From NCBI RefSeq assembly GCF_030384665.1, contig NC_083677.1, positions 1,299,501 through 1,363,500 of the forward strand: 64,000 bases of DNA, given 5' to 3'. A program made the position numbers and the translations under genes. A model generated the notes under the pieces. The model worked only from the letters and a program-made list of their open reading frames with translations. It was not told the origin of the DNA and made no database searches. The stretch comes from Lodderomyces elongisporus. Its lineage: Eukaryota > Ascomycota > Pichiomycetes > Serinales > Debaryomycetaceae. Shown one piece after another: positions 1 to 58,114 of this stretch. Within the stretch, counting starts at the first letter, position 1, and the number at the start of each line of letters is the position of its first letter.

Positions 1-1111
1 AGACTTGGATTCTTGGTCGACGAGCCACTTTAGGCCCTACTCCGACAAGAAGCTTATAGCCAATCTTGTTTTGTTTTGTGAGATAGGCTATATCGCGTGC
101 AAGCTTCGAAAGAATGTCCTTCCTCTCCTTGGCAAGCATCGGGAAACGGACATTACCTGTGGGGCTACTTTCATCAATGTAGTATGACTGTCGTTTTGAC
201 GAGGAGGAGAAATAAGCCGCAAAACTAGTGTTCTTTGTGTTCTCTGTGTTCTCTGTGTTCTCTGTGTGCTTTGTTTGTTTTGTGTGTTTTGTGTGTTTTG
301 TGTTCTTTTTGGAGTTGGAGTTGGTCTGGTGATTGGAGGCAGTGGTGTCAGTAGTGTTTATAGCATTTGAGGAACTCTCTGTGAACATGTTCACACCTTT
401 TAAATCATTTTGCAAACCGTAGACTATATTAGTTTCCTTGTCAAAAGCAGGGGTCATGGTGTAGTACCTTTCTTCTCCTTCAAACTCAAAACTAAAGAGA
501 TGAAGATAAGGAAGCAAAAAAGATGGTTTTTCATAATGGGTATTCATTTTGGCTGCTTTATCTCTGATGTCTTCGAAATGCTCTTTTGTAACGCTGTATA
601 TCAAATATTTTCCATCGGCAGATGAAAACAATGATTCACCAATCTTAATAACCGAGTCTTCATCGATACCAAACGATTGTAAAATCAAGGCGTCTGATAG
701 TCCTAACATCCGTCTCACCCAGTGAAAAATCTTTGGACTGATAGATTTAAACTTCGCATTAGAGCCTTCCAGCAGCATAACAATATCGACTGAATCATAT
801 TTATTCCACAATCTTCTCTCACTGTCAATTATGGAAATTTTAATACCTTCAGTGAGGAAAAATCTTTCGGCATTTTTGGCAATTGACAAATTATTGGTTA
901 ACGAGGATGGCGACTTTGATTCAACTTTTTCAGAGAGCTGTGAAGTTGGTGATGATTTGGCTTTCTTCACAAAGGCGGTCTTCAATTTCTCAAATGCCAC
1001 TTTTGGAGATTTGAGAGCAGGTTTCTGTGATAATTTAAACCGAACCTTGGGCTCGGCGGGTTTGGAATCCTTTGCAAAGACGTTTTGAAAACATTTATTA
1101 AAAAAGGGCAT
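1..1111 (-). CDS. PIPK-fold predicted pseudokinase, array copy 0 (3' part cut by window edge)
   Basis: Residues 1-370 of the 517-residue array protein; the window starts one base into codon 371. The ATG is at 1111-1109. The visible part is identical to copies 1-3 at the positions compared, with a CAC codon for His282. Its promoter carries the (GAA)10 allele, one repeat shorter than the common (GAA)11. Function and domains are described under the copy at 3316-4869. Nothing suggests this copy is broken; it is incomplete only because the window begins here. Confidence 0.85.
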   Translation of the reverse strand, partial: MPFFNKCFQNVFAKDSKPAEPKVRFKLSQKPALKSPKVAFEKLKTAFVKKAKSSPTSQLSEKVESKSPSSLTNNLSIAKNAERFFLTEGIKISIIDSERRLWNKYDSVDIVMLLEGSNAKFKSISPKIFHWVRRMLGLSDALILQSFGIDEDSVIKIGESLFSSADGKYLIYSVTKEHFEDIRDKAAKMNTHYEKPSFLLPYLHLFSFEFEGEERYYTMTPAFDKETNIVYGLQNDLKGVNMFTESSSNAINTTDTTASNHQTNSNSKKNTKHTKHTKQTKHTENTENTENTKNTSFAAYFSSSSKRQSYYIDESSPTGNVRFPMLAKERKDILSKLARDIAYLTKQNKIGYKLLVGVGPKVARRPRIQV

Positions 1112-3315: not shown

Positions 3316-4869
3316 TTACCAATAAAAGAGCGATAATATAGCAAAGATCGGCATTAGCATGTAAAATCGCAGCCGGTAGAAGGCGTTTATTAACACCAGT
3401 TTTAACCTCCTGATTAGTTTTTTATGTTTTTTTTGTTTTTCATTTTCATCATCGGATAAGCTATATCCAAGTTCTGCAATTAGCAGAGCCTTGGGTTTGT
3501 TCAGGAAGATTTCCGACCCCTTTTTGAAGATTGATTTTAGGCTCTTTACTGAGCGAGTATAGTAGCTAGTTGGCGGTAATGTTTTTGTTTCGAAGTTTGC
3601 TAGAAGCCACCCCCCCTCAACAACCTCAATGTGTTGATTAAAAGTTTCAAGCAACCATCTAGCATACTCTTCAGGTGTCTTTACTTTTGTTTTGCCAAAC
3701 CTGAAGAACTTTTTACTTCCCCCCTCTTTGATGTACGACTTGTGGTAGTCGACAATCCAGACTTGGATTCTTGGTCGACGAGCCACTTTAGGCCCTACTC
3801 CGACAAGAAGCTTATAGCCAATCTTGTTTTGTTTTGTGAGATAGGCTATATCGCGTGCAAGCTTCGAAAGAATGTCCTTCCTCTCCTTGGCAAGCATCGG
3901 GAAACGGACATTACCTGTGGGGCTACTTTCATCAATGTAGTATGACTGTCGTTTTGACGAGGAGGAGAAATAAGCCGCAAAACTAGTGTTCTTTGTGTTC
4001 TCTGTGTTCTCTGTGTTCTCTGTGTGCTTTGTTTGTTTTGTGTGTTTTGTGTGTTTTGTGTTCTTTTTGGAGTTGGAGTTGGTCTGGTGATTGGAGGCAG
4101 TGGTGTCAGTAGTGTTTATAGCATTTGAGGAACTCTCTGTGAACATGTTCACACCTTTTAAATCATTTTGCAAACCGTAGACTATATTAGTTTCCTTGTC
4201 AAAAGCAGGGGTCATGGTGTAGTACCTTTCTTCTCCTTCAAACTCAAAACTAAAGAGATGAAGATAAGGAAGCAAAAAAGATGGTTTTTCATAATGGGTA
4301 TTCATTTTGGCTGCTTTATCTCTGATGTCTTCGAAATGCTCTTTTGTAACGCTGTATATCAAATATTTTCCATCGGCAGATGAAAACAATGATTCACCAA
4401 TCTTAATAACCGAGTCTTCATCGATACCAAACGATTGTAAAATCAAGGCGTCTGATAGTCCTAACATCCGTCTCACCCAGTGAAAAATCTTTGGACTGAT
4501 AGATTTAAACTTCGCATTAGAGCCTTCCAGCAGCATAACAATATCGACTGAATCATATTTATTCCACAATCTTCTCTCACTGTCAATTATGGAAATTTTA
4601 ATACCTTCAGTGAGGAAAAATCTTTCGGCATTTTTGGCAATTGACAAATTATTGGTTAACGAGGATGGCGACTTTGATTCAACTTTTTCAGAGAGCTGTG
4701 AAGTTGGTGATGATTTGGCTTTCTTCACAAAGGCGGTCTTCAATTTCTCAAATGCCACTTTTGGAGATTTGAGAGCAGGTTTCTGTGATAATTTAAACCG
4801 AACCTTGGGCTCGGCGGGTTTGGAATCCTTTGCAAAGACGTTTTGAAAACATTTATTAAAAAAGGGCAT
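3316..4869 (-). CDS. PIPK-fold (Fab1/PIKfyve-like) predicted pseudokinase with C-terminal membrane tail, array copy 1
   Basis: 517 codons. Residues 1-80 are basic and Ser/Lys-rich. Residues about 147-243 resemble the PIPK N-lobe: GIDEDS (148-153), GKYLIYSVTK (167-176) where the family has its IIK lysine, a LLPYLHLFSF strand (199-208) and DLKG (236-239), the family's DLKGS motif. A Thr/Asn/Lys repeat insert (about 250-296; KHT, ENT units from a 9-bp repeat) follows. Residues 324-421 match the C-lobe: IGYKLLVG (350-357) where kinases have MDYSLLVG, WIVDY (371-375) for GIIDY, and TPEEY...W (398-421) spaced as in the Fab1/PIKfyve tail. So Lys appears to be Tyr172 and the catalytic Asp appears to be Gly351, while the metal-binding Asp374 remains: a likely pseudokinase. 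Residues 502-517 are hydrophobic after a basic stretch, suggesting a tail anchor. Codons 491 and 500 are CTG, probably Ser here. Motif matches are by eye, from memory of the family; role unknown. GAA allele 11; His282 is CAC. Confidence 0.8.
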   Translation of the reverse strand: MPFFNKCFQNVFAKDSKPAEPKVRFKLSQKPALKSPKVAFEKLKTAFVKKAKSSPTSQLSEKVESKSPSSLTNNLSIAKNAERFFLTEGIKISIIDSERRLWNKYDSVDIVMLLEGSNAKFKSISPKIFHWVRRMLGLSDALILQSFGIDEDSVIKIGESLFSSADGKYLIYSVTKEHFEDIRDKAAKMNTHYEKPSFLLPYLHLFSFEFEGEERYYTMTPAFDKETNIVYGLQNDLKGVNMFTESSSNAINTTDTTASNHQTNSNSKKNTKHTKHTKQTKHTENTENTENTKNTSFAAYFSSSSKRQSYYIDESSPTGNVRFPMLAKERKDILSKLARDIAYLTKQNKIGYKLLVGVGPKVARRPRIQVWIVDYHKSYIKEGGSKKFFRFGKTKVKTPEEYARWLLETFNQHIEVVEGGWLLANFETKTLPPTSYYTRSVKSLKSIFKKGSEIFLNKPKALLIAELGYSLSDDENEKQKKHKKLIRRLKLVLINAFYRLRFYMLMPIFAILSLFYW

Positions 4870-6190: not shown

Positions 6191-6679
6191 ATGCCAAATA
6201 TGATAAATATAAGTAGTGGTGGTAGTGGTGGTGGTCATAGTGGTGGTGGTAGTGGTGGTGGTCATAGTGGTGGTGGTAGTAGTAGTGGTGGTAGTAGTAT
6301 TGGTGGTGATGGTAGTAGTGGTGGTGGTGATGGTAATAGTGGTGGTGGTGATGGTAGTAGTGGTGGTGGTAGTAGTGGTAGTAGTGGTGATGGTAGTAGT
6401 GGTGGTGGTGGTGATGGTAGTAGTGGTGGTGGTAGTAGTGGTAGTAGTGGTGATGGTAGTAGTGGTAGTAGTGGTGATGGTAGTAGTGGTGGTGGTGGTG
6501 GTGGTGGTGGTGATGGTAATAGTGGTGGTGGTGATGGTAATAGTGGTGGTGGTGATGGTAGTAGTGGTGGTGGTAGTAGTGGTGGTGGTAGTGGTAGTAG
6601 TGGTGGTGGTGGTAGTAAAGCTATTCCACCACGAGCAAACAATGATTATTATGTAGCAAAATTAAACCCCGAGAACTGA
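6191..6679 (+). CDS. Gly/Ser-rich tract ORF, 162 codons (allele B), unit 2
   Basis: As at 2430-2933 but missing one HSGGG block (15 bp) near the N-terminus. The leader and the tail starting KAIPPRANNDYY are unchanged. The coding status is uncertain for the same reasons. Confidence 0.35.
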   Translation: MPNMINISSGGSGGGHSGGGSGGGHSGGGSSSGGSSIGGDGSSGGGDGNSGGGDGSSGGGSSGSSGDGSSGGGGDGSSGGGSSGSSGDGSSGSSGDGSSGGGGGGGGDGNSGGGDGNSGGGDGSSGGGSSGGGSGSSGGGGSKAIPPRANNDYYVAKLNPEN

Positions 6680-7061
6680 TTCCACAAGCTTTTCTTCTGC
6701 ACCATCTGAAACAACTTGCACGGTGACTTATACAACTCAACCTGTGATTCTATGATCCCGCTGTGCCTTGTTGATACTCCTAGTGCATATGCATCCTCCA
6801 CATTTTTCGTCCCCCGTGCAAGATCATACGACAAAGGCGCCATTTTGCCGCAGGATCTGCCAAGTTCAGAATAAATGTGTGAGTCAGCAGCTACACTAGT
6901 GCAATGTTGTGGTAGGCTATGGGAAACGGTAGCAGAGGTCGGTGGGCTCCCCCTGCTTTGGGATCATGGCTGGGTTTGTGATATAGTCATCCGTGAAGCA
7001 GCAACAGAGGTAACATCAGAAATAGCATCAGGAACAGCATCGGTGGTATTTATAGTAGCAG

Positions 7062-8615
7062 TTACCAATAAAAGAGCGATAATATAGCAAAGATCGGCAT
7101 TAGCATGTAAAATCGCAGCCGGTAGAAGGCGTTTATTAACACCAGTTTTAACCTCCTGATTAGTTTTTTATGTTTTTTTTGTTTTTCATTTTCATCATCG
7201 GATAAGCTATATCCAAGTTCTGCAATTAGCAGAGCCTTGGGTTTGTTCAGGAAGATTTCCGACCCCTTTTTGAAGATTGATTTTAGGCTCTTTACTGAGC
7301 GAGTATAGTAGCTAGTTGGCGGTAATGTTTTTGTTTCGAAGTTTGCTAGAAGCCACCCCCCCTCAACAACCTCAATGTGTTGATTAAAAGTTTCAAGCAA
7401 CCATCTAGCATACTCTTCAGGTGTCTTTACTTTTGTTTTGCCAAACCTGAAGAACTTTTTACTTCCCCCCTCTTTGATGTACGACTTGTGGTAGTCGACA
7501 ATCCAGACTTGGATTCTTGGTCGACGAGCCACTTTAGGCCCTACTCCGACAAGAAGCTTATAGCCAATCTTGTTTTGTTTTGTGAGATAGGCTATATCGC
7601 GTGCAAGCTTCGAAAGAATGTCCTTCCTCTCCTTGGCAAGCATCGGGAAACGGACATTACCTGTGGGGCTACTTTCATCAATGTAGTATGACTGTCGTTT
7701 TGACGAGGAGGAGAAATAAGCCGCAAAACTAGTGTTCTTTGTGTTCTCTGTGTTCTCTGTGTTCTCTGTGTGCTTTGTTTGTTTTGTGTGTTTTGTGTGT
7801 TTTGTGTTCTTTTTGGAGTTGGAGTTGGTCTGGTGATTGGAGGCAGTGGTGTCAGTAGTGTTTATAGCATTTGAGGAACTCTCTGTGAACATGTTCACAC
7901 CTTTTAAATCATTTTGCAAACCGTAGACTATATTAGTTTCCTTGTCAAAAGCAGGGGTCATGGTGTAGTACCTTTCTTCTCCTTCAAACTCAAAACTAAA
8001 GAGATGAAGATAAGGAAGCAAAAAAGATGGTTTTTCATAATGGGTATTCATTTTGGCTGCTTTATCTCTGATGTCTTCGAAATGCTCTTTTGTAACGCTG
8101 TATATCAAATATTTTCCATCGGCAGATGAAAACAATGATTCACCAATCTTAATAACCGAGTCTTCATCGATACCAAACGATTGTAAAATCAAGGCGTCTG
8201 ATAGTCCTAACATCCGTCTCACCCAGTGAAAAATCTTTGGACTGATAGATTTAAACTTCGCATTAGAGCCTTCCAGCAGCATAACAATATCGACTGAATC
8301 ATATTTATTCCACAATCTTCTCTCACTGTCAATTATGGAAATTTTAATACCTTCAGTGAGGAAAAATCTTTCGGCATTTTTGGCAATTGACAAATTATTG
8401 GTTAACGAGGATGGCGACTTTGATTCAACTTTTTCAGAGAGCTGTGAAGTTGGTGATGATTTGGCTTTCTTCACAAAGGCGGTCTTCAATTTCTCAAATG
8501 CCACTTTTGGAGATTTGAGAGCAGGTTTCTGTGATAATTTAAACCGAACCTTGGGCTCGGCGGGTTTGGAATCCTTTGCAAAGACGTTTTGAAAACATTT
8601 ATTAAAAAAGGGCAT
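7062..8615 (-). CDS. PIPK-fold predicted pseudokinase, array copy 2
   Basis: Protein identical to copy 1. His282 codon CAC; promoter (GAA)11. Allele B lies on its 3' side and allele A on its 5' side. Confidence 0.8.
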   Translation of the reverse strand: MPFFNKCFQNVFAKDSKPAEPKVRFKLSQKPALKSPKVAFEKLKTAFVKKAKSSPTSQLSEKVESKSPSSLTNNLSIAKNAERFFLTEGIKISIIDSERRLWNKYDSVDIVMLLEGSNAKFKSISPKIFHWVRRMLGLSDALILQSFGIDEDSVIKIGESLFSSADGKYLIYSVTKEHFEDIRDKAAKMNTHYEKPSFLLPYLHLFSFEFEGEERYYTMTPAFDKETNIVYGLQNDLKGVNMFTESSSNAINTTDTTASNHQTNSNSKKNTKHTKHTKQTKHTENTENTENTKNTSFAAYFSSSSKRQSYYIDESSPTGNVRFPMLAKERKDILSKLARDIAYLTKQNKIGYKLLVGVGPKVARRPRIQVWIVDYHKSYIKEGGSKKFFRFGKTKVKTPEEYARWLLETFNQHIEVVEGGWLLANFETKTLPPTSYYTRSVKSLKSIFKKGSEIFLNKPKALLIAELGYSLSDDENEKQKKHKKLIRRLKLVLINAFYRLRFYMLMPIFAILSLFYW

Positions 8616-10822: not shown

Positions 10823-12376
10823 TTACCAATAAAAGAGCGATAATATAGCAAAGATCGGCATTAGCATGTAAAATCGCAGCCGGTAGAAGGCGTTTATTAA
10901 CACCAGTTTTAACCTCCTGATTAGTTTTTTATGTTTTTTTTGTTTTTCATTTTCATCATCGGATAAGCTATATCCAAGTTCTGCAATTAGCAGAGCCTTG
11001 GGTTTGTTCAGGAAGATTTCCGACCCCTTTTTGAAGATTGATTTTAGGCTCTTTACTGAGCGAGTATAGTAGCTAGTTGGCGGTAATGTTTTTGTTTCGA
11101 AGTTTGCTAGAAGCCACCCCCCCTCAACAACCTCAATGTGTTGATTAAAAGTTTCAAGCAACCATCTAGCATACTCTTCAGGTGTCTTTACTTTTGTTTT
11201 GCCAAACCTGAAGAACTTTTTACTTCCCCCCTCTTTGATGTACGACTTGTGGTAGTCGACAATCCAGACTTGGATTCTTGGTCGACGAGCCACTTTAGGC
11301 CCTACTCCGACAAGAAGCTTATAGCCAATCTTGTTTTGTTTTGTGAGATAGGCTATATCGCGTGCAAGCTTCGAAAGAATGTCCTTCCTCTCCTTGGCAA
11401 GCATCGGGAAACGGACATTACCTGTGGGGCTACTTTCATCAATGTAGTATGACTGTCGTTTTGACGAGGAGGAGAAATAAGCCGCAAAACTAGTGTTCTT
11501 TGTGTTCTCTGTGTTCTCTGTGTTCTCTGTGTGCTTTGTTTGTTTTGTGTGTTTTGTGTGTTTTGTGTTCTTTTTGGAGTTGGAGTTGGTCTGGTGATTG
11601 GAGGCAGTGGTGTCAGTAGTGTTTATAGCATTTGAGGAACTCTCTGTGAACATGTTCACACCTTTTAAATCATTTTGCAAACCGTAGACTATATTAGTTT
11701 CCTTGTCAAAAGCAGGGGTCATGGTGTAGTACCTTTCTTCTCCTTCAAACTCAAAACTAAAGAGATGAAGATAAGGAAGCAAAAAAGATGGTTTTTCATA
11801 ATGGGTATTCATTTTGGCTGCTTTATCTCTGATGTCTTCGAAATGCTCTTTTGTAACGCTGTATATCAAATATTTTCCATCGGCAGATGAAAACAATGAT
11901 TCACCAATCTTAATAACCGAGTCTTCATCGATACCAAACGATTGTAAAATCAAGGCGTCTGATAGTCCTAACATCCGTCTCACCCAGTGAAAAATCTTTG
12001 GACTGATAGATTTAAACTTCGCATTAGAGCCTTCCAGCAGCATAACAATATCGACTGAATCATATTTATTCCACAATCTTCTCTCACTGTCAATTATGGA
12101 AATTTTAATACCTTCAGTGAGGAAAAATCTTTCGGCATTTTTGGCAATTGACAAATTATTGGTTAACGAGGATGGCGACTTTGATTCAACTTTTTCAGAG
12201 AGCTGTGAAGTTGGTGATGATTTGGCTTTCTTCACAAAGGCGGTCTTCAATTTCTCAAATGCCACTTTTGGAGATTTGAGAGCAGGTTTCTGTGATAATT
12301 TAAACCGAACCTTGGGCTCGGCGGGTTTGGAATCCTTTGCAAAGACGTTTTGAAAACATTTATTAAAAAAGGGCAT
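10823..12376 (-). CDS. PIPK-fold predicted pseudokinase, array copy 3
   Basis: Protein identical to copy 1. His282 codon CAC; promoter (GAA)11; flanked on both sides by tract allele A. Confidence 0.8.
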   Translation of the reverse strand: MPFFNKCFQNVFAKDSKPAEPKVRFKLSQKPALKSPKVAFEKLKTAFVKKAKSSPTSQLSEKVESKSPSSLTNNLSIAKNAERFFLTEGIKISIIDSERRLWNKYDSVDIVMLLEGSNAKFKSISPKIFHWVRRMLGLSDALILQSFGIDEDSVIKIGESLFSSADGKYLIYSVTKEHFEDIRDKAAKMNTHYEKPSFLLPYLHLFSFEFEGEERYYTMTPAFDKETNIVYGLQNDLKGVNMFTESSSNAINTTDTTASNHQTNSNSKKNTKHTKHTKQTKHTENTENTENTKNTSFAAYFSSSSKRQSYYIDESSPTGNVRFPMLAKERKDILSKLARDIAYLTKQNKIGYKLLVGVGPKVARRPRIQVWIVDYHKSYIKEGGSKKFFRFGKTKVKTPEEYARWLLETFNQHIEVVEGGWLLANFETKTLPPTSYYTRSVKSLKSIFKKGSEIFLNKPKALLIAELGYSLSDDENEKQKKHKKLIRRLKLVLINAFYRLRFYMLMPIFAILSLFYW

Positions 12377-14583: not shown

Positions 14584-16137
14584 TTACCAATAAAAGAGCG
14601 ATAATATAGCAAAGATCGGCATTAGCATGTAAAATCGCAGCCGGTAGAAGGCGTTTATTAACACCAGTTTTAACCTCCTGATTAGTTTTTTATGTTTTTT
14701 TTGTTTTTCATTTTCATCATCGGATAAGCTATATCCAAGTTCTGCAATTAGCAGAGCCTTGGGTTTGTTCAGGAAGATTTCCGACCCCTTTTTGAAGATT
14801 GATTTTAGGCTCTTTACTGAGCGAGTATAGTAGCTAGTTGGCGGTAATGTTTTTGTTTCGAAGTTTGCTAGAAGCCACCCCCCCTCAACAACCTCAATGT
14901 GTTGATTAAAAGTTTCAAGCAACCATCTAGCATACTCTTCAGGTGTCTTTACTTTTGTTTTGCCAAACCTGAAGAACTTTTTACTTCCCCCCTCTTTGAT
15001 GTACGACTTGTGGTAGTCGACAATCCAGACTTGGATTCTTGGTCGACGAGCCACTTTAGGCCCTACTCCGACAAGAAGCTTATAGCCAATCTTGTTTTGT
15101 TTTGTGAGATAGGCTATATCGCGTGCAAGCTTCGAAAGAATGTCCTTCCTCTCCTTGGCAAGCATCGGGAAACGGACATTACCTGTGGGGCTACTTTCAT
15201 CAATGTAGTATGACTGTCGTTTTGACGAGGAGGAGAAATAAGCCGCAAAACTAGTGTTCTTTGTGTTCTCTGTGTTCTCTGTGTTCTCTGTATGCTTTGT
15301 TTGTTTTGTGTGTTTTGTGTGTTTTGTGTTCTTTTTGGAGTTGGAGTTGGTCTGGTGATTGGAGGCAGTGGTGTCAGTAGTGTTTATAGCATTTGAGGAA
15401 CTCTCTGTGAACATGTTCACACCTTTTAAATCATTTTGCAAACCGTAGACTATATTAGTTTCCTTGTCAAAAGCAGGGGTCATGGTGTAGTACCTTTCTT
15501 CTCCTTCAAACTCAAAACTAAAGAGATGAAGATAAGGAAGCAAAAAAGATGGTTTTTCATAATGGGTATTCATTTTGGCTGCTTTATCTCTGATGTCTTC
15601 GAAATGCTCTTTTGTAACGCTGTATATCAAATATTTTCCATCGGCAGATGAAAACAATGATTCACCAATCTTAATAACCGAGTCTTCATCGATACCAAAC
15701 GATTGTAAAATCAAGGCGTCTGATAGTCCTAACATCCGTCTCACCCAGTGAAAAATCTTTGGACTGATAGATTTAAACTTCGCATTAGAGCCTTCCAGCA
15801 GCATAACAATATCGACTGAATCATATTTATTCCACAATCTTCTCTCACTGTCAATTATGGAAATTTTAATACCTTCAGTGAGGAAAAATCTTTCGGCATT
15901 TTTGGCAATTGACAAATTATTGGTTAACGAGGATGGCGACTTTGATTCAACTTTTTCAGAGAGCTGTGAAGTTGGTGATGATTTGGCTTTCTTCACAAAG
16001 GCGGTCTTCAATTTCTCAAATGCCACTTTTGGAGATTTGAGAGCAGGTTTCTGTGATAATTTAAACCGAACCTTGGGCTCGGCGGGTTTGGAATCCTTTG
16101 CAAAGACGTTTTGAAAACATTTATTAAAAAAGGGCAT
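14584..16137 (-). CDS. PIPK-fold predicted pseudokinase, array copy 4
   Basis: Protein identical to copy 1, but the His282 codon is CAT rather than CAC, a silent change that marks a second subfamily of units. Promoter (GAA)11. The shortest tract allele (C) lies on its 5' side. Confidence 0.8.
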   Translation of the reverse strand: MPFFNKCFQNVFAKDSKPAEPKVRFKLSQKPALKSPKVAFEKLKTAFVKKAKSSPTSQLSEKVESKSPSSLTNNLSIAKNAERFFLTEGIKISIIDSERRLWNKYDSVDIVMLLEGSNAKFKSISPKIFHWVRRMLGLSDALILQSFGIDEDSVIKIGESLFSSADGKYLIYSVTKEHFEDIRDKAAKMNTHYEKPSFLLPYLHLFSFEFEGEERYYTMTPAFDKETNIVYGLQNDLKGVNMFTESSSNAINTTDTTASNHQTNSNSKKNTKHTKHTKQTKHTENTENTENTKNTSFAAYFSSSSKRQSYYIDESSPTGNVRFPMLAKERKDILSKLARDIAYLTKQNKIGYKLLVGVGPKVARRPRIQVWIVDYHKSYIKEGGSKKFFRFGKTKVKTPEEYARWLLETFNQHIEVVEGGWLLANFETKTLPPTSYYTRSVKSLKSIFKKGSEIFLNKPKALLIAELGYSLSDDENEKQKKHKKLIRRLKLVLINAFYRLRFYMLMPIFAILSLFYW

Positions 16138-18293: not shown

Positions 18294-19847
18294 TTACCAA
18301 TAAAAGAGCGATAATATAGCAAAGATCGGCATTAGCATGTAAAATCGCAGCCGGTAGAAGGCGTTTATTAACACCAGTTTTAACCTCCTGATTAGTTTTT
18401 TATGTTTTTTTTGTTTTTCATTTTCATCATCGGATAAGCTATATCCAAGTTCTGCAATTAGCAGAGCCTTGGGTTTGTTCAGGAAGATTTCCGACCCCTT
18501 TTTGAAGATTGATTTTAGGCTCTTTACTGAGCGAGTATAGTAGCTAGTTGGCGGTAATGTTTTTGTTTCGAAGTTTGCTAGAAGCCACCCCCCCTCAACA
18601 ACCTCAATGTGTTGATTAAAAGTTTCAAGCAACCATCTAGCATACTCTTCAGGTGTCTTTACTTTTGTTTTGCCAAACCTGAAGAACTTTTTACTTCCCC
18701 CCTCTTTGATGTACGACTTGTGGTAGTCGACAATCCAGACTTGGATTCTTGGTCGACGAGCCACTTTAGGCCCTACTCCGACAAGAAGCTTATAGCCAAT
18801 CTTGTTTTGTTTTGTGAGATAGGCTATATCGCGTGCAAGCTTCGAAAGAATGTCCTTCCTCTCCTTGGCAAGCATCGGGAAACGGACATTACCTGTGGGG
18901 CTACTTTCATCAATGTAGTATGACTGTCGTTTTGACGAGGAGGAGAAATAAGCCGCAAAACTAGTGTTCTTTGTGTTCTCTGTGTTCTCTGTGTTCTCTG
19001 TATGCTTTGTTTGTTTTGTGTGTTTTGTGTGTTTTGTGTTCTTTTTGGAGTTGGAGTTGGTCTGGTGATTGGAGGCAGTGGTGTCAGTAGTGTTTATAGC
19101 ATTTGAGGAACTCTCTGTGAACATGTTCACACCTTTTAAATCATTTTGCAAACCGTAGACTATATTAGTTTCCTTGTCAAAAGCAGGGGTCATGGTGTAG
19201 TACCTTTCTTCTCCTTCAAACTCAAAACTAAAGAGATGAAGATAAGGAAGCAAAAAAGATGGTTTTTCATAATGGGTATTCATTTTGGCTGCTTTATCTC
19301 TGATGTCTTCGAAATGCTCTTTTGTAACGCTGTATATCAAATATTTTCCATCGGCAGATGAAAACAATGATTCACCAATCTTAATAACCGAGTCTTCATC
19401 GATACCAAACGATTGTAAAATCAAGGCGTCTGATAGTCCTAACATCCGTCTCACCCAGTGAAAAATCTTTGGACTGATAGATTTAAACTTCGCATTAGAG
19501 CCTTCCAGCAGCATAACAATATCGACTGAATCATATTTATTCCACAATCTTCTCTCACTGTCAATTATGGAAATTTTAATACCTTCAGTGAGGAAAAATC
19601 TTTCGGCATTTTTGGCAATTGACAAATTATTGGTTAACGAGGATGGCGACTTTGATTCAACTTTTTCAGAGAGCTGTGAAGTTGGTGATGATTTGGCTTT
19701 CTTCACAAAGGCGGTCTTCAATTTCTCAAATGCCACTTTTGGAGATTTGAGAGCAGGTTTCTGTGATAATTTAAACCGAACCTTGGGCTCGGCGGGTTTG
19801 GAATCCTTTGCAAAGACGTTTTGAAAACATTTATTAAAAAAGGGCAT
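18294..19847 (-). CDS. PIPK-fold predicted pseudokinase, array copy 5
   Basis: Protein identical to copy 1. His282 codon CAT. First copy with the long (GAA)16 promoter allele (19949-19996). Confidence 0.8.
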   Translation of the reverse strand: MPFFNKCFQNVFAKDSKPAEPKVRFKLSQKPALKSPKVAFEKLKTAFVKKAKSSPTSQLSEKVESKSPSSLTNNLSIAKNAERFFLTEGIKISIIDSERRLWNKYDSVDIVMLLEGSNAKFKSISPKIFHWVRRMLGLSDALILQSFGIDEDSVIKIGESLFSSADGKYLIYSVTKEHFEDIRDKAAKMNTHYEKPSFLLPYLHLFSFEFEGEERYYTMTPAFDKETNIVYGLQNDLKGVNMFTESSSNAINTTDTTASNHQTNSNSKKNTKHTKHTKQTKHTENTENTENTKNTSFAAYFSSSSKRQSYYIDESSPTGNVRFPMLAKERKDILSKLARDIAYLTKQNKIGYKLLVGVGPKVARRPRIQVWIVDYHKSYIKEGGSKKFFRFGKTKVKTPEEYARWLLETFNQHIEVVEGGWLLANFETKTLPPTSYYTRSVKSLKSIFKKGSEIFLNKPKALLIAELGYSLSDDENEKQKKHKKLIRRLKLVLINAFYRLRFYMLMPIFAILSLFYW

Positions 19848-22048: not shown

Positions 22049-23602
22049 TTACCAATAAAAGAGCGATAATATAGCAAAGATCGGCATTAGCATGTAAAAT
22101 CGCAGCCGGTAGAAGGCGTTTATTAACACCAGTTTTAACCTCCTGATTAGTTTTTTATGTTTTTTTTGTTTTTCATTTTCATCATCGGATAAGCTATATC
22201 CAAGTTCTGCAATTAGCAGAGCCTTGGGTTTGTTCAGGAAGATTTCCGACCCCTTTTTGAAGATTGATTTTAGGCTCTTTACTGAGCGAGTATAGTAGCT
22301 AGTTGGCGGTAATGTTTTTGTTTCGAAGTTTGCTAGAAGCCACCCCCCCTCAACAACCTCAATGTGTTGATTAAAAGTTTCAAGCAACCATCTAGCATAC
22401 TCTTCAGGTGTCTTTACTTTTGTTTTGCCAAACCTGAAGAACTTTTTACTTCCCCCCTCTTTGATGTACGACTTGTGGTAGTCGACAATCCAGACTTGGA
22501 TTCTTGGTCGACGAGCCACTTTAGGCCCTACTCCGACAAGAAGCTTATAGCCAATCTTGTTTTGTTTTGTGAGATAGGCTATATCGCGTGCAAGCTTCGA
22601 AAGAATGTCCTTCCTCTCCTTGGCAAGCATCGGGAAACGGACATTACCTGTGGGGCTACTTTCATCAATGTAGTATGACTGTCGTTTTGACGAGGAGGAG
22701 AAATAAGCCGCAAAACTAGTGTTCTTTGTGTTCTCTGTGTTCTCTGTGTTCTCTGTATGCTTTGTTTGTTTTGTGTGTTTTGTGTGTTTTGTGTTCTTTT
22801 TGGAGTTGGAGTTGGTCTGGTGATTGGAGGCAGTGGTGTCAGTAGTGTTTATAGCATTTGAGGAACTCTCTGTGAACATGTTCACACCTTTTAAATCATT
22901 TTGCAAACCGTAGACTATATTAGTTTCCTTGTCAAAAGCAGGGGTCATGGTGTAGTACCTTTCTTCTCCTTCAAACTCAAAACTAAAGAGATGAAGATAA
23001 GGAAGCAAAAAAGATGGTTTTTCATAATGGGTATTCATTTTGGCTGCTTTATCTCTGATGTCTTCGAAATGCTCTTTTGTAACGCTGTATATCAAATATT
23101 TTCCATCGGCAGATGAAAACAATGATTCACCAATCTTAATAACCGAGTCTTCATCGATACCAAACGATTGTAAAATCAAGGCGTCTGATAGTCCTAACAT
23201 CCGTCTCACCCAGTGAAAAATCTTTGGACTGATAGATTTAAACTTCGCATTAGAGCCTTCCAGCAGCATAACAATATCGACTGAATCATATTTATTCCAC
23301 AATCTTCTCTCACTGTCAATTATGGAAATTTTAATACCTTCAGTGAGGAAAAATCTTTCGGCATTTTTGGCAATTGACAAATTATTGGTTAACGAGGATG
23401 GCGACTTTGATTCAACTTTTTCAGAGAGCTGTGAAGTTGGTGATGATTTGGCTTTCTTCACAAAGGCGGTCTTCAATTTCTCAAATGCCACTTTTGGAGA
23501 TTTGAGAGCAGGTTTCTGTGATAATTTAAACCGAACCTTGGGCTCGGCGGGTTTGGAATCCTTTGCAAAGACGTTTTGAAAACATTTATTAAAAAAGGGC
23601 AT
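22049..23602 (-). CDS. PIPK-fold predicted pseudokinase, array copy 6
   Basis: Protein identical to copy 1. His282 codon CAT; promoter (GAA)16. Tract allele D on its 3' side, allele B on its 5' side. Confidence 0.8.
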   Translation of the reverse strand: MPFFNKCFQNVFAKDSKPAEPKVRFKLSQKPALKSPKVAFEKLKTAFVKKAKSSPTSQLSEKVESKSPSSLTNNLSIAKNAERFFLTEGIKISIIDSERRLWNKYDSVDIVMLLEGSNAKFKSISPKIFHWVRRMLGLSDALILQSFGIDEDSVIKIGESLFSSADGKYLIYSVTKEHFEDIRDKAAKMNTHYEKPSFLLPYLHLFSFEFEGEERYYTMTPAFDKETNIVYGLQNDLKGVNMFTESSSNAINTTDTTASNHQTNSNSKKNTKHTKHTKQTKHTENTENTENTKNTSFAAYFSSSSKRQSYYIDESSPTGNVRFPMLAKERKDILSKLARDIAYLTKQNKIGYKLLVGVGPKVARRPRIQVWIVDYHKSYIKEGGSKKFFRFGKTKVKTPEEYARWLLETFNQHIEVVEGGWLLANFETKTLPPTSYYTRSVKSLKSIFKKGSEIFLNKPKALLIAELGYSLSDDENEKQKKHKKLIRRLKLVLINAFYRLRFYMLMPIFAILSLFYW

Positions 23603-25809: not shown

Positions 25810-27363
25810 TTACCAATAAAAGAGCGATAATATAGCAAAGATCGGCATTAGCATGTAAAATCGCAGCCGGTAGAAGGCGTTTATTAACACCAGTTTTAAC
25901 CTCCTGATTAGTTTTTTATGTTTTTTTTGTTTTTCATTTTCATCATCGGATAAGCTATATCCAAGTTCTGCAATTAGCAGAGCCTTGGGTTTGTTCAGGA
26001 AGATTTCCGACCCCTTTTTGAAGATTGATTTTAGGCTCTTTACTGAGCGAGTATAGTAGCTAGTTGGCGGTAATGTTTTTGTTTCGAAGTTTGCTAGAAG
26101 CCACCCCCCCTCAACAACCTCAATGTGTTGATTAAAAGTTTCAAGCAACCATCTAGCATACTCTTCAGGTGTCTTTACTTTTGTTTTGCCAAACCTGAAG
26201 AACTTTTTACTTCCCCCCTCTTTGATGTACGACTTGTGGTAGTCGACAATCCAGACTTGGATTCTTGGTCGACGAGCCACTTTAGGCCCTACTCCGACAA
26301 GAAGCTTATAGCCAATCTTGTTTTGTTTTGTGAGATAGGCTATATCGCGTGCAAGCTTCGAAAGAATGTCCTTCCTCTCCTTGGCAAGCATCGGGAAACG
26401 GACATTACCTGTGGGGCTACTTTCATCAATGTAGTATGACTGTCGTTTTGACGAGGAGGAGAAATAAGCCGCAAAACTAGTGTTCTTTGTGTTCTCTGTG
26501 TTCTCTGTGTTCTCTGTGTGCTTTGTTTGTTTTGTGTGTTTTGTGTGTTTTGTGTTCTTTTTGGAGTTGGAGTTGGTCTGGTGATTGGAGGCAGTGGTGT
26601 CAGTAGTGTTTATAGCATTTGAGGAACTCTCTGTGAACATGTTCACACCTTTTAAATCATTTTGCAAACCGTAGACTATATTAGTTTCCTTGTCAAAAGC
26701 AGGGGTCATGGTGTAGTACCTTTCTTCTCCTTCAAACTCAAAACTAAAGAGATGAAGATAAGGAAGCAAAAAAGATGGTTTTTCATAATGGGTATTCATT
26801 TTGGCTGCTTTATCTCTGATGTCTTCGAAATGCTCTTTTGTAACGCTGTATATCAAATATTTTCCATCGGCAGATGAAAACAATGATTCACCAATCTTAA
26901 TAACCGAGTCTTCATCGATACCAAACGATTGTAAAATCAAGGCGTCTGATAGTCCTAACATCCGTCTCACCCAGTGAAAAATCTTTGGACTGATAGATTT
27001 AAACTTCGCATTAGAGCCTTCCAGCAGCATAACAATATCGACTGAATCATATTTATTCCACAATCTTCTCTCACTGTCAATTATGGAAATTTTAATACCT
27101 TCAGTGAGGAAAAATCTTTCGGCATTTTTGGCAATTGACAAATTATTGGTTAACGAGGATGGCGACTTTGATTCAACTTTTTCAGAGAGCTGTGAAGTTG
27201 GTGATGATTTGGCTTTCTTCACAAAGGCGGTCTTCAATTTCTCAAATGCCACTTTTGGAGATTTGAGAGCAGGTTTCTGTGATAATTTAAACCGAACCTT
27301 GGGCTCGGCGGGTTTGGAATCCTTTGCAAAGACGTTTTGAAAACATTTATTAAAAAAGGGCAT
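25810..27363 (-). CDS. PIPK-fold predicted pseudokinase, array copy 7
   Basis: Protein identical to copy 1. His282 codon is back to CAC and the promoter to (GAA)11, an island of the first subfamily inside the CAT block (copies 4-6 and 8-10). Confidence 0.8.
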   Translation of the reverse strand: MPFFNKCFQNVFAKDSKPAEPKVRFKLSQKPALKSPKVAFEKLKTAFVKKAKSSPTSQLSEKVESKSPSSLTNNLSIAKNAERFFLTEGIKISIIDSERRLWNKYDSVDIVMLLEGSNAKFKSISPKIFHWVRRMLGLSDALILQSFGIDEDSVIKIGESLFSSADGKYLIYSVTKEHFEDIRDKAAKMNTHYEKPSFLLPYLHLFSFEFEGEERYYTMTPAFDKETNIVYGLQNDLKGVNMFTESSSNAINTTDTTASNHQTNSNSKKNTKHTKHTKQTKHTENTENTENTKNTSFAAYFSSSSKRQSYYIDESSPTGNVRFPMLAKERKDILSKLARDIAYLTKQNKIGYKLLVGVGPKVARRPRIQVWIVDYHKSYIKEGGSKKFFRFGKTKVKTPEEYARWLLETFNQHIEVVEGGWLLANFETKTLPPTSYYTRSVKSLKSIFKKGSEIFLNKPKALLIAELGYSLSDDENEKQKKHKKLIRRLKLVLINAFYRLRFYMLMPIFAILSLFYW

Positions 27364-29570: not shown

Positions 29571-31124
29571 TTACCAATAAAAGAGCGATAATATAGCAAA
29601 GATCGGCATTAGCATGTAAAATCGCAGCCGGTAGAAGGCGTTTATTAACACCAGTTTTAACCTCCTGATTAGTTTTTTATGTTTTTTTTGTTTTTCATTT
29701 TCATCATCGGATAAGCTATATCCAAGTTCTGCAATTAGCAGAGCCTTGGGTTTGTTCAGGAAGATTTCCGACCCCTTTTTGAAGATTGATTTTAGGCTCT
29801 TTACTGAGCGAGTATAGTAGCTAGTTGGCGGTAATGTTTTTGTTTCGAAGTTTGCTAGAAGCCACCCCCCCTCAACAACCTCAATGTGTTGATTAAAAGT
29901 TTCAAGCAACCATCTAGCATACTCTTCAGGTGTCTTTACTTTTGTTTTGCCAAACCTGAAGAACTTTTTACTTCCCCCCTCTTTGATGTACGACTTGTGG
30001 TAGTCGACAATCCAGACTTGGATTCTTGGTCGACGAGCCACTTTAGGCCCTACTCCGACAAGAAGCTTATAGCCAATCTTGTTTTGTTTTGTGAGATAGG
30101 CTATATCGCGTGCAAGCTTCGAAAGAATGTCCTTCCTCTCCTTGGCAAGCATCGGGAAACGGACATTACCTGTGGGGCTACTTTCATCAATGTAGTATGA
30201 CTGTCGTTTTGACGAGGAGGAGAAATAAGCCGCAAAACTAGTGTTCTTTGTGTTCTCTGTGTTCTCTGTGTTCTCTGTATGCTTTGTTTGTTTTGTGTGT
30301 TTTGTGTGTTTTGTGTTCTTTTTGGAGTTGGAGTTGGTCTGGTGATTGGAGGCAGTGGTGTCAGTAGTGTTTATAGCATTTGAGGAACTCTCTGTGAACA
30401 TGTTCACACCTTTTAAATCATTTTGCAAACCGTAGACTATATTAGTTTCCTTGTCAAAAGCAGGGGTCATGGTGTAGTACCTTTCTTCTCCTTCAAACTC
30501 AAAACTAAAGAGATGAAGATAAGGAAGCAAAAAAGATGGTTTTTCATAATGGGTATTCATTTTGGCTGCTTTATCTCTGATGTCTTCGAAATGCTCTTTT
30601 GTAACGCTGTATATCAAATATTTTCCATCGGCAGATGAAAACAATGATTCACCAATCTTAATAACCGAGTCTTCATCGATACCAAACGATTGTAAAATCA
30701 AGGCGTCTGATAGTCCTAACATCCGTCTCACCCAGTGAAAAATCTTTGGACTGATAGATTTAAACTTCGCATTAGAGCCTTCCAGCAGCATAACAATATC
30801 GACTGAATCATATTTATTCCACAATCTTCTCTCACTGTCAATTATGGAAATTTTAATACCTTCAGTGAGGAAAAATCTTTCGGCATTTTTGGCAATTGAC
30901 AAATTATTGGTTAACGAGGATGGCGACTTTGATTCAACTTTTTCAGAGAGCTGTGAAGTTGGTGATGATTTGGCTTTCTTCACAAAGGCGGTCTTCAATT
31001 TCTCAAATGCCACTTTTGGAGATTTGAGAGCAGGTTTCTGTGATAATTTAAACCGAACCTTGGGCTCGGCGGGTTTGGAATCCTTTGCAAAGACGTTTTG
31101 AAAACATTTATTAAAAAAGGGCAT
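29571..31124 (-). CDS. PIPK-fold predicted pseudokinase, array copy 8
   Basis: Protein identical to copy 1. His282 codon CAT; promoter (GAA)16. Allele E on both sides. Confidence 0.8.
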   Translation of the reverse strand: MPFFNKCFQNVFAKDSKPAEPKVRFKLSQKPALKSPKVAFEKLKTAFVKKAKSSPTSQLSEKVESKSPSSLTNNLSIAKNAERFFLTEGIKISIIDSERRLWNKYDSVDIVMLLEGSNAKFKSISPKIFHWVRRMLGLSDALILQSFGIDEDSVIKIGESLFSSADGKYLIYSVTKEHFEDIRDKAAKMNTHYEKPSFLLPYLHLFSFEFEGEERYYTMTPAFDKETNIVYGLQNDLKGVNMFTESSSNAINTTDTTASNHQTNSNSKKNTKHTKHTKQTKHTENTENTENTKNTSFAAYFSSSSKRQSYYIDESSPTGNVRFPMLAKERKDILSKLARDIAYLTKQNKIGYKLLVGVGPKVARRPRIQVWIVDYHKSYIKEGGSKKFFRFGKTKVKTPEEYARWLLETFNQHIEVVEGGWLLANFETKTLPPTSYYTRSVKSLKSIFKKGSEIFLNKPKALLIAELGYSLSDDENEKQKKHKKLIRRLKLVLINAFYRLRFYMLMPIFAILSLFYW

Positions 31125-33346: not shown

Positions 33347-34900
33347 TTACCAATAAAAGAGCGATAATATAGCAAAGATCGGCATTAGCATGTAAAATCG
33401 CAGCCGGTAGAAGGCGTTTATTAACACCAGTTTTAACCTCCTGATTAGTTTTTTATGTTTTTTTTGTTTTTCATTTTCATCATCGGATAAGCTATATCCA
33501 AGTTCTGCAATTAGCAGAGCCTTGGGTTTGTTCAGGAAGATTTCCGACCCCTTTTTGAAGATTGATTTTAGGCTCTTTACTGAGCGAGTATAGTAGCTAG
33601 TTGGCGGTAATGTTTTTGTTTCGAAGTTTGCTAGAAGCCACCCCCCCTCAACAACCTCAATGTGTTGATTAAAAGTTTCAAGCAACCATCTAGCATACTC
33701 TTCAGGTGTCTTTACTTTTGTTTTGCCAAACCTGAAGAACTTTTTACTTCCCCCCTCTTTGATGTACGACTTGTGGTAGTCGACAATCCAGACTTGGATT
33801 CTTGGTCGACGAGCCACTTTAGGCCCTACTCCGACAAGAAGCTTATAGCCAATCTTGTTTTGTTTTGTGAGATAGGCTATATCGCGTGCAAGCTTCGAAA
33901 GAATGTCCTTCCTCTCCTTGGCAAGCATCGGGAAACGGACATTACCTGTGGGGCTACTTTCATCAATGTAGTATGACTGTCGTTTTGACGAGGAGGAGAA
34001 ATAAGCCGCAAAACTAGTGTTCTTTGTGTTCTCTGTGTTCTCTGTGTTCTCTGTATGCTTTGTTTGTTTTGTGTGTTTTGTGTGTTTTGTGTTCTTTTTG
34101 GAGTTGGAGTTGGTCTGGTGATTGGAGGCAGTGGTGTCAGTAGTGTTTATAGCATTTGAGGAACTCTCTGTGAACATGTTCACACCTTTTAAATCATTTT
34201 GCAAACCGTAGACTATATTAGTTTCCTTGTCAAAAGCAGGGGTCATGGTGTAGTACCTTTCTTCTCCTTCAAACTCAAAACTAAAGAGATGAAGATAAGG
34301 AAGCAAAAAAGATGGTTTTTCATAATGGGTATTCATTTTGGCTGCTTTATCTCTGATGTCTTCGAAATGCTCTTTTGTAACGCTGTATATCAAATATTTT
34401 CCATCGGCAGATGAAAACAATGATTCACCAATCTTAATAACCGAGTCTTCATCGATACCAAACGATTGTAAAATCAAGGCGTCTGATAGTCCTAACATCC
34501 GTCTCACCCAGTGAAAAATCTTTGGACTGATAGATTTAAACTTCGCATTAGAGCCTTCCAGCAGCATAACAATATCGACTGAATCATATTTATTCCACAA
34601 TCTTCTCTCACTGTCAATTATGGAAATTTTAATACCTTCAGTGAGGAAAAATCTTTCGGCATTTTTGGCAATTGACAAATTATTGGTTAACGAGGATGGC
34701 GACTTTGATTCAACTTTTTCAGAGAGCTGTGAAGTTGGTGATGATTTGGCTTTCTTCACAAAGGCGGTCTTCAATTTCTCAAATGCCACTTTTGGAGATT
34801 TGAGAGCAGGTTTCTGTGATAATTTAAACCGAACCTTGGGCTCGGCGGGTTTGGAATCCTTTGCAAAGACGTTTTGAAAACATTTATTAAAAAAGGGCAT
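33347..34900 (-). CDS. PIPK-fold predicted pseudokinase, array copy 9
   Basis: Protein identical to copy 1. His282 codon CAT; promoter (GAA)16. Allele E on its 3' side, B on its 5' side. Confidence 0.8.
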   Translation of the reverse strand: MPFFNKCFQNVFAKDSKPAEPKVRFKLSQKPALKSPKVAFEKLKTAFVKKAKSSPTSQLSEKVESKSPSSLTNNLSIAKNAERFFLTEGIKISIIDSERRLWNKYDSVDIVMLLEGSNAKFKSISPKIFHWVRRMLGLSDALILQSFGIDEDSVIKIGESLFSSADGKYLIYSVTKEHFEDIRDKAAKMNTHYEKPSFLLPYLHLFSFEFEGEERYYTMTPAFDKETNIVYGLQNDLKGVNMFTESSSNAINTTDTTASNHQTNSNSKKNTKHTKHTKQTKHTENTENTENTKNTSFAAYFSSSSKRQSYYIDESSPTGNVRFPMLAKERKDILSKLARDIAYLTKQNKIGYKLLVGVGPKVARRPRIQVWIVDYHKSYIKEGGSKKFFRFGKTKVKTPEEYARWLLETFNQHIEVVEGGWLLANFETKTLPPTSYYTRSVKSLKSIFKKGSEIFLNKPKALLIAELGYSLSDDENEKQKKHKKLIRRLKLVLINAFYRLRFYMLMPIFAILSLFYW

Positions 34901-37107: not shown

Positions 37108-38661
37108 TTACCAATAAAAGAGCGATAATATAGCAAAGATCGGCATTAGCATGTAAAATCGCAGCCGGTAGAAGGCGTTTATTAACACCAGTTTTAACCT
37201 CCTGATTAGTTTTTTATGTTTTTTTTGTTTTTCATTTTCATCATCGGATAAGCTATATCCAAGTTCTGCAATTAGCAGAGCCTTGGGTTTGTTCAGGAAG
37301 ATTTCCGACCCCTTTTTGAAGATTGATTTTAGGCTCTTTACTGAGCGAGTATAGTAGCTAGTTGGCGGTAATGTTTTTGTTTCGAAGTTTGCTAGAAGCC
37401 ACCCCCCCTCAACAACCTCAATGTGTTGATTAAAAGTTTCAAGCAACCATCTAGCATACTCTTCAGGTGTCTTTACTTTTGTTTTGCCAAACCTGAAGAA
37501 CTTTTTACTTCCCCCCTCTTTGATGTACGACTTGTGGTAGTCGACAATCCAGACTTGGATTCTTGGTCGACGAGCCACTTTAGGCCCTACTCCGACAAGA
37601 AGCTTATAGCCAATCTTGTTTTGTTTTGTGAGATAGGCTATATCGCGTGCAAGCTTCGAAAGAATGTCCTTCCTCTCCTTGGCAAGCATCGGGAAACGGA
37701 CATTACCTGTGGGGCTACTTTCATCAATGTAGTATGACTGTCGTTTTGACGAGGAGGAGAAATAAGCCGCAAAACTAGTGTTCTTTGTGTTCTCTGTGTT
37801 CTCTGTGTTCTCTGTATGCTTTGTTTGTTTTGTGTGTTTTGTGTGTTTTGTGTTCTTTTTGGAGTTGGAGTTGGTCTGGTGATTGGAGGCAGTGGTGTCA
37901 GTAGTGTTTATAGCATTTGAGGAACTCTCTGTGAACATGTTCACACCTTTTAAATCATTTTGCAAACCGTAGACTATATTAGTTTCCTTGTCAAAAGCAG
38001 GGGTCATGGTGTAGTACCTTTCTTCTCCTTCAAACTCAAAACTAAAGAGATGAAGATAAGGAAGCAAAAAAGATGGTTTTTCATAATGGGTATTCATTTT
38101 GGCTGCTTTATCTCTGATGTCTTCGAAATGCTCTTTTGTAACGCTGTATATCAAATATTTTCCATCGGCAGATGAAAACAATGATTCACCAATCTTAATA
38201 ACCGAGTCTTCATCGATACCAAACGATTGTAAAATCAAGGCGTCTGATAGTCCTAACATCCGTCTCACCCAGTGAAAAATCTTTGGACTGATAGATTTAA
38301 ACTTCGCATTAGAGCCTTCCAGCAGCATAACAATATCGACTGAATCATATTTATTCCACAATCTTCTCTCACTGTCAATTATGGAAATTTTAATACCTTC
38401 AGTGAGGAAAAATCTTTCGGCATTTTTGGCAATTGACAAATTATTGGTTAACGAGGATGGCGACTTTGATTCAACTTTTTCAGAGAGCTGTGAAGTTGGT
38501 GATGATTTGGCTTTCTTCACAAAGGCGGTCTTCAATTTCTCAAATGCCACTTTTGGAGATTTGAGAGCAGGTTTCTGTGATAATTTAAACCGAACCTTGG
38601 GCTCGGCGGGTTTGGAATCCTTTGCAAAGACGTTTTGAAAACATTTATTAAAAAAGGGCAT
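37108..38661 (-). CDS. PIPK-fold predicted pseudokinase, array copy 10
   Basis: Protein identical to copy 1. His282 codon CAT but promoter (GAA)11, the same combination as copy 4. Allele B on both sides. Confidence 0.8.
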   Translation of the reverse strand: MPFFNKCFQNVFAKDSKPAEPKVRFKLSQKPALKSPKVAFEKLKTAFVKKAKSSPTSQLSEKVESKSPSSLTNNLSIAKNAERFFLTEGIKISIIDSERRLWNKYDSVDIVMLLEGSNAKFKSISPKIFHWVRRMLGLSDALILQSFGIDEDSVIKIGESLFSSADGKYLIYSVTKEHFEDIRDKAAKMNTHYEKPSFLLPYLHLFSFEFEGEERYYTMTPAFDKETNIVYGLQNDLKGVNMFTESSSNAINTTDTTASNHQTNSNSKKNTKHTKHTKQTKHTENTENTENTKNTSFAAYFSSSSKRQSYYIDESSPTGNVRFPMLAKERKDILSKLARDIAYLTKQNKIGYKLLVGVGPKVARRPRIQVWIVDYHKSYIKEGGSKKFFRFGKTKVKTPEEYARWLLETFNQHIEVVEGGWLLANFETKTLPPTSYYTRSVKSLKSIFKKGSEIFLNKPKALLIAELGYSLSDDENEKQKKHKKLIRRLKLVLINAFYRLRFYMLMPIFAILSLFYW

Positions 38662-42407: not shown

Positions 42408-42955
42408 TGTTAATTATTAAATTGTAGTCTTACTAAATTATTGATTGTAAAATCTGGTTAATGTTGTCGAGTAAGGCTTGGTTGTGTGTTTAATTGTGGT
42501 AAAAGAAAGAAGAAGAAGAAGAAGAAGAAAAGGGTAAAAGAAGGTTTGAGGTCACAAGGGTTTTGTTTGTGGATATTTATACTTCACCAGGTAGCCCTCA
42601 AGTCACGCCTTGTAGTTGGAGACTAACAAGTAAATTGTGTTATGCCATATACATTGTGGTTGCAAAACCCGCGAGGAAGTGAGGGGAACAGAACGGCGAG
42701 GAAATCCCTTCTGGTAGCTTAGCAGTGCGTGTGCAATTGTATGCGCTACCAAATGCTTCATAACAAAAAACCAAATGGGTGCTGCCAAATGGGTGTGGCT
42801 GTAACAGATAGCGGACGACCAGAGTGGATGAATTGTATGTATGGATGCATGTTGGCTCAACACAATCTACAACCTTATACATCCTGCAATGCATTCTACC
42901 TCCGCAAACATTTTTCTACTGAAGTTCGAGGAAAATTGTGAGCTCAGCTACCCCC
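42408..42955. repeat. Diverged terminal part-unit at the right edge of the array
   Basis: This is the start of the unit spacer, but diverged. The first difference from the array consensus is at 42435, then 42483, the GAA run cut to 7 copies, 42543 and 42600. After about 42690 it carries an extra stretch of about 31 bp, lacks the GTGTTGCCAATAGT duplication, lacks roughly 95 bp including the inverted repeat, and has many substitutions. Recognisable similarity stops at a GAGCTCAGCT word near 42945. Divergence rises away from the array. Confidence 0.9.
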
Positions 42956-52700: not shown

Positions 52701-52769
52701 TTCGTGGGGATTGGCTTTCGTATTAGTGCCTGCTGCCGGCTGTTGCTCGTTTACATGTTCTACCATTTC

Positions 52770-52772
<3 letters not shown>
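49755..52772 (-). CDS. VAC7: Vac7-like vacuolar membrane protein, activator of the Fab1 PI3P 5-kinase
   Basis: 1005 codons from the ATG at 52772; the open frame extends upstream only through a (GT)n run without another ATG. About 800 N-terminal residues are low complexity (Ser, Asn, Gln, Thr stretches, a (TTC/GTT)-encoded poly-Thr, TGTGTGTGA). One membrane segment lies at about residues 803-825 (TFICIFAILTVGFILGFFMA), followed by a 175-residue C-terminal domain starting SNVGIVSIENPIV, with NPGWFSVDIEEVELDLFARS and NPFDLIITGVLKYTLP typical of the Vac7 luminal domain. Vac7 sits in the vacuolar membrane and is needed for Fab1 to make PI(3,5)P2, controlling vacuole size and hyperosmotic response. 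The cytosolic part is poorly conserved in the family. Five in-frame CTG codons at 51903-51965 are probably Ser. Confidence 0.88.

Positions 52773-52802
<30 letters not shown>
52773..52802. repeat. (AC)15 microsatellite directly abutting the VAC7 start codon
   Basis: Perfect dinucleotide run. On the VAC7 mRNA it is (GU)15 immediately before the AUG, replacing the A-rich context usual in yeast leaders. Changes in repeat number would alter the leader but not the protein. Confidence 0.9.
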
Positions 52803-57954: not shown

Positions 57955-58018
57955 CTTTAATTGCAATCATTAATTACTTTGGAAGCGCACTATTGATGTA
58001 ACATATACACTGCCAAAG

Positions 58019-58114
58019 ACACTGTCTAACACACTGTCTAACACACTGTCTAACACACTGTCTAACACACTGTCTAACACACTGTCTAACACACTGTCTA
58101 ACACACTGTCTAAC
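58019..58114. repeat. 12-bp minisatellite, 8 perfect copies
   Basis: Unit ACACTGTCTAAC repeated eight times without error, flanked by degenerate copies (about 58007-58018 and 58115-58138). It lies about 350-440 bp upstream of MTD1. Confidence 0.95.

Follow-up and report, generated by a model that had tools for sequence, protein, structure and literature searches.

The window considered here is a stretch of 64,000 nucleotides of the Lodderomyces elongisporus genome (chromosome C5:1299501-1363500; the genome comprises 16,086,460 bases in 8 contigs) and carries a tandem array of minus-strand genes of a kind that we call type I (Table 1). The open reading frame of 517 residues singled out in the original prediction is present and is one of 11 complete copies, a 12th being truncated at the left edge, and the tandem amplification already proposed for it is thus confirmed. 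Each of the 11 genes differs by at most one base from the copy used as reference, and among the 10 complete spacers three carry a variant of 12 substitutions and the other seven vary in length alone. As CTG is read as serine in the clade of the host, six leucines of the standard translation (113, 114, 456, 462, 491 and 500) become serines in the corrected protein.

Table 1. Features of the window (positions counted from its first letter) and units of the family elsewhere in the genome
Feature	Position	Strand	Remark
Putative type I pseudo-PIPK gene, 3' end outside the window	1..1111	-	Left edge; whole copy C5:1299061-1300611, from genome search
Putative type I pseudo-PIPK gene under study	3316..4869	-	517 residues
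GGT-type minisatellite (example)	6216..6617	.	Chief cause of unit length differences
Conserved non-coding element, about 390 bp (example)	6630..7020	-	3' of gene, one per unit
Type I copy	7062..8615	-	Reference in most analyses
Type I copy	10823..12376	-
Type I copy	14584..16137	-
Type I copy	18294..19847	-
Type I copy	22049..23602	-
Type I copy	25810..27363	-
Type I copy	29571..31124	-
Type I copy	33347..34900	-
Type I copy	37108..38661	-
Type I copy	40854..42407	-	First gene at right array edge
Shared 5' flank of rightmost copy	42408..42922	-	Promoter with TATAAATA; array similarity stops here
Type I units	C5 array 12, C6 singleton 1		At least 13
Type II units	C6 array 12, C8 1, C4 1		At least 14
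Type III units	C2 27, C4 9		At least 36
Type IV units	C2 30, C8 7		At least 37
Type V units	C3 13, C7 16, C8 8		At least 37
Type V loci (L023-L026, L034)	C3:552-611k, C7:489-561k, C8:897-934k
Type VI units	C3		At least 4
LTR-like element, about 450-490 bp	L009:6446-6930, L016:2072-2557, L011:663-1110, L032:7873-8001		Adjoins array edges on C5, C6, C4, C3

From a series of short motifs the protein had been proposed to be related to the PIPK family of lipid kinases, and the fold itself was borne out. Using single-sequence phmmer against the PDB, type I gave E=2e-5, with all 17 matches at E<=10 being type II PIPKs, a profile of five types reached E=5e-16, and a model built without any PIPK had PIPKs alone among the 50 matches listed. 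Structural comparison, also called for in the original prediction, agreed, as residues 77-415 of the model share the two-lobed fold with PI5P4K. The suggested check against Pfam PF01504 had a divided outcome: the window protein alone scores below the curated cut-off of Pfam, whereas at E<=1 six of nine family members match PF01504 (best 1.2e-6). Two public type III records are annotated with it; a whole-genome search at E<=0.001 returned Mss4 and Fab1 alone (345 and 120 bits, the array family scoring far lower) and no array copy. A chance similarity of motifs would account for the sub-threshold score of the window protein and for the lack of array copies in the genome-wide search, but it is contradicted by the five-type profile and by the matches of the PIPK-free model, and also has the annotation of the two type III records against it, so that we give it practically no credence. 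The family is a PIPK relative by descent and not a canonical kinase, and we are very confident that the array genes are catalytically degenerate members of this lineage.

The motifs of the type I protein start at residues 169 (YLIYSV, including Tyr172), 236 (DLKG), 350 (IGYKLLVG, including Gly351), 371 (WIVDY, including Asp374) and 398 (TPEEY). In the alignment with PDB chains 3x07 and 1bo1 (numbering via an offset of 23), Tyr172 lies opposite lysine 150 and Gly351 opposite aspartate 278, and in the alignment with Fab1, Asp374 lies opposite the aspartate of IID; we take K150, D278 and D369 to be the catalytic positions in PIPK structure numbering. The substitution of the ATP lysine by Tyr172 and of the catalytic Asp by Gly351, together with the retention of Asp374, had all been read from the motifs and stand after alignment. 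Across the types, the position of the ATP lysine is Tyr in I, II and III, His in IV and Ser in VI; that of the catalytic Asp (MDYSLLVG) is Gly in I, III and IV and Asn in II, with two copies of type VI having Asn and two Asp; that of the metal Asp (IIDY) is Asp in I, III and IV, Ala in II and Asn in VI. DLKG was found in type I alone among the types compared. These replacements suggest that the PIPK domains of the arrays are catalytically dead. An active lipid kinase with unusual catalytic residues would be in keeping with Asp374, retained in types I, III and IV, and with the catalytic Asp that two of the four type VI copies still have; it is nevertheless very improbable, the ATP lysine being substituted in all types examined, the catalytic Asp in types I-IV, and DLKG being confined to type I.

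A specific affinity to Fab1/PIKfyve, as first proposed, was not supported. The five-type profile places PI5P4K-beta (62 bits) and the host Mss4 (37.4) above the host Fab1 (23.9), with PIP5K1A at 18.6; Mss4 as a single sequence scores higher with PIP5K1A (189) than with PI5P4K (170). Fab1/PIKfyve, a type III PIPK, carries FYVE and chaperonin-like domains, and no Pfam match to these was obtained in the window protein or among the families listed for nine members. The nearest solved structures by sequence are those of PI5P4K (type II PIPK), although we do not take this to mean that the family descends from type II; PI5P4K shares the fold, whereas the yeast family is without the catalytic Lys and Asp. 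Mss4 and Fab1 of the host belong to the same Pfam family and, unlike the array family, both retain the catalytic motifs; the arrays are unlikely to derive from a recent copy of either.

The hydrophobic membrane tail of the original prediction is weak in type I. Its best 19-residue Kyte-Doolittle value is 1.18 with CTG read as Ser (1.42 as Leu), under the usual threshold of about 1.6 for a membrane span. A convincing span (2.34) is confined to type II as carried by the C6 array and is absent from the type I proteins of the window. The array proteins may be membrane-associated through an amphipathic start and a basic tail.

The original prediction was made from one window, where the tandem array was correctly seen; that the gene is one of six types distributed over the genome was invisible there. 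Whole-genome searches, counted by script from their listings, gave at least 141 units on seven of the eight chromosomes, in tandem arrays or singly (Table 1). The counts are lower bounds, as the search scored the best candidates alone, and they leave out incomplete or disrupted copies at C2:2398-2402k, at C8:747k and at C8:824-826k. The arrays, at about 24-115 kb, are longer than the HiFi reads (mean 13.3 kb), which makes their copy numbers provisional. On each of C2-C8 the loci of the family fall within a single region, no larger than about 225 kb and in many cases shared by several types, and no unit on C1 was among the matches listed; from unit spacing, the family covers about 0.55 Mb of the 16.1-Mb genome. 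A pericentromeric location of these loci would be a guess. The named matches in homologue searches were all from L. elongisporus, and these word-based searches gave no named relative outside the species (6 and 9 matches with about 8000 best candidates scored, and 3 matches in a third search with all 125 candidates scored).

The types share an N-terminal motif, MxFFxxxF...PAERKVRFxLPGE, in variants, from which type II diverges after residue 18. Within it, at residues 18-26 in the protein of the window, KVRF/NVRY resembles the PP1-docking RVxF motif; types III-VI have it as well, and type II does not. The PIPK domain is kept in at least 104 units, none of which was reported to have an internal stop, and is lost in the 37 units of type V. 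The latter have the same N-terminus as the other types, followed by 39-residue repeats and polyQ; downstream, translations of two loci revealed a frame-shifted, stop-broken remnant resembling the type VI N-lobe. A match between types IV and V at residues of about 114-302 was considered as a PIPK remnant and rejected as low-complexity sequence.

Comparison between types gave omega values of 0.23-0.47 for the core (335 codons) in 23 of 36 pairs, the other 13 being saturated at synonymous sites. For types I-III, the C-lobe gave 0.26-0.49 (bootstrap upper bounds 0.48-0.79) in all three pairs, and the N-lobe 0.50 (0.27-0.81) in the sole unsaturated pair of three. The N-terminus gave 0.34-0.51 with upper bounds of 0.86-1.40, and the C-tail, at 0.49, 0.55 and 1.10 (upper bounds 0.91-3.40), has no clear constraint. 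By these estimates both lobes of the PIPK domain are under purifying selection between types, and a function of the domain would therefore have been retained over the longer term; the homogenised copies within an array are uninformative on present selection.

The flanks of the units behave differently from the genes. Although types I and II are separated by a core dS of 0.83-0.85, identity between them is 90-96% in the promoter region and 97-98% in the 3' element. In 12 units taken from six types and six chromosomes, the 3' element had 347 of 397 columns invariant, being 94-100% identical between units whose gene bodies are diverged or unrelated. The promoter with TATAAATA was recognisable in 12 of 12 units. 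Promoter cores of types II and III on C4 are 100% identical over 200 bases, and on C8 those of types V and II reach 99%; when type II or type III is compared between chromosomes, the value is 92-95%. Such identity on the same chromosome therefore points to exchange between types in these cases, although not always, since type V on C3 and type V on C8 also reach 99%. The C6 singleton is a chimera, beginning as type II and continuing with the body of type I.

The 3' element does not encode a protein, this being ruled out by 1-base indels between units and by stops in type V. In folding predictions, the window copy gave z=-4.34 for the sense and +0.50 for the antisense strand, and 12 near-identical units gave sense values of -1.75 to -4.33, lower than the antisense value in every one of the 12; elsewhere within the same unit, windows went down to -3.7 and -5.6 (antisense). 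Both sides had changed in one of 19 variable pairs and the pair was broken in seven of 19, so that a structured RNA from the sense strand is only suggested. Rfam returned nothing at gathering score in the window and three weak sub-threshold matches in one unit. At the array edges on C5 and C6 there is a common stretch of about 486 bases (98% identical), related at 82-83% to dispersed copies of which many are paired 8.2 kb apart (best 40 of 106 candidates scored); it is most likely the LTR of a retrotransposon. No tRNA was found at array edges in the window or in 13 loci.

The far stronger conservation of flanks than of bodies raises the question of what is being amplified. The DNA units themselves could be the object, as recombination-prone, satellite-like and perhaps pericentromeric arrays in which the genes are mostly passengers. 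Amplification does not require the PIPK domain, because type V has reached 37 units without it; moreover, the loci occupy one region on each of seven chromosomes, a G-rich minisatellite is present in every unit of the window, and Koren (2010) described long repetitive DNA in L. elongisporus near some predicted centromeres, as well as on chromosomes without a prediction (PMC2924309). Passenger genes would, however, hardly be expected to have both lobes under purifying selection between types, no reported internal stop in 104 PIPK-bearing units and a conserved promoter; C1 is without an array among the matches listed, and a later paper describes the predicted centromeres as mostly unique (PMC7263194). 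We think this explanation unlikely, if worth keeping in view.

The array genes could also be selfish, for instance a meiotic driver of the killer kind resembling the wtf genes of fission yeast and spread by biased transmission and conversion. Such a family would fit the restriction to one species, the presence on several chromosomes, the fast-diverging bodies, the coding repeat-length variation, the conversion of flanks and the LTR-like element at array edges. The wtf genes, too, are present in many copies, are restricted to yeast, undergo gene conversion and change rapidly. Drivers of that kind consist of a multi-span membrane poison/antidote pair, whereas the array proteins are unrelated to wtf, are homologous to PIPKs and to no toxin, have at most one candidate membrane span by hydropathy and display no poison/antidote architecture; nor would drive need dozens of identical tandem copies. 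We regard a driver as improbable, though it too is worth keeping in view. In a bolder variant, to which we attach slightly less weight still, the units would be self-propagating cassettes whose fixed parts, the promoter and a 390-nt 3' element that may be structured, move exchangeable bodies between chromosomes by conversion, the dead lipid kinase acting as a dosage-dependent agent that disturbs phosphoinositide control (for example in sporulation) and favours its own transmission.

Our preferred reading, which we hold tentatively, is that of a pseudo-PIPK acting by stoichiometry at membranes. Loss of the catalytic residues suggests a job by binding rather than catalysis, and a high gene dosage fits such a role. 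The array genes, if expressed, would yield dead PIPK-fold proteins that contact membranes through the N-terminal helix, the basic tail and the lipid-facing PIPK surface, and that may partner or compete with Mss4 and Fab1 or mask acidic phosphoinositides. Copy number would arise from unequal exchange and ectopic conversion via the shared flanks. The nearest precedent is mammalian PIPKH (PIP5KL1), a PIPK relative described as a likely pseudokinase that is membrane-associated and interacts with PIP5Ks, and whose overexpression redistributes PIP5Ks and PI(4,5)P2 (PMC6794296); the yeast proteins might act in a parallel way. PIPKH is a single named gene, whereas the yeast family has at least 141 units, six types, low-complexity loops and shared flanks, and its partner binding is hypothetical.

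Given PIPKH in mammals (PMC6794296) and the ciliate pseudo-PIPKs TtPIPK1c and d, described in 2013 (PMC3823935), the original statement that such a protein is not recognised from any known system was too strong. In the PIPK domains of the ciliate proteins the catalytic motifs are likewise replaced and the G-loop is degraded; they differ in their strong Pfam scores and in having Asn for Asp, and the passages of that paper describing them do not mention tandem arrays (PMC3823935). We found no description of the array family among the titles and abstract openings listed in searches of the open-licence literature. The Sanger assembly of L. elongisporus NRRL YB-4239 is reported to be fragmented, with PacBio adding over 0.6 Mb (PMC10586162), and this may be why the arrays escaped notice. 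Pseudo-PIPKs have so far been a few named genes, and here a single yeast has at least 141 units of a family based on one. It offers a natural case for studying the role that a lipid-kinase fold can have in the absence of catalysis while selection maintains the fold, and for asking by what means flanks stay nearly identical around diverging genes in arrays spread over many chromosomes.

Two further features lie to the right of the array. A homologue of Vac7, which in yeast is a regulator of the PIPK Fab1, is encoded at 49755-52802 (minus strand; Pfam E=8e-26), its proximity to the array being probably a coincidence, and a 12-bp minisatellite, ACACTGTCTAAC, is found at 58007-58120 (9.5 copies, 97% matches).
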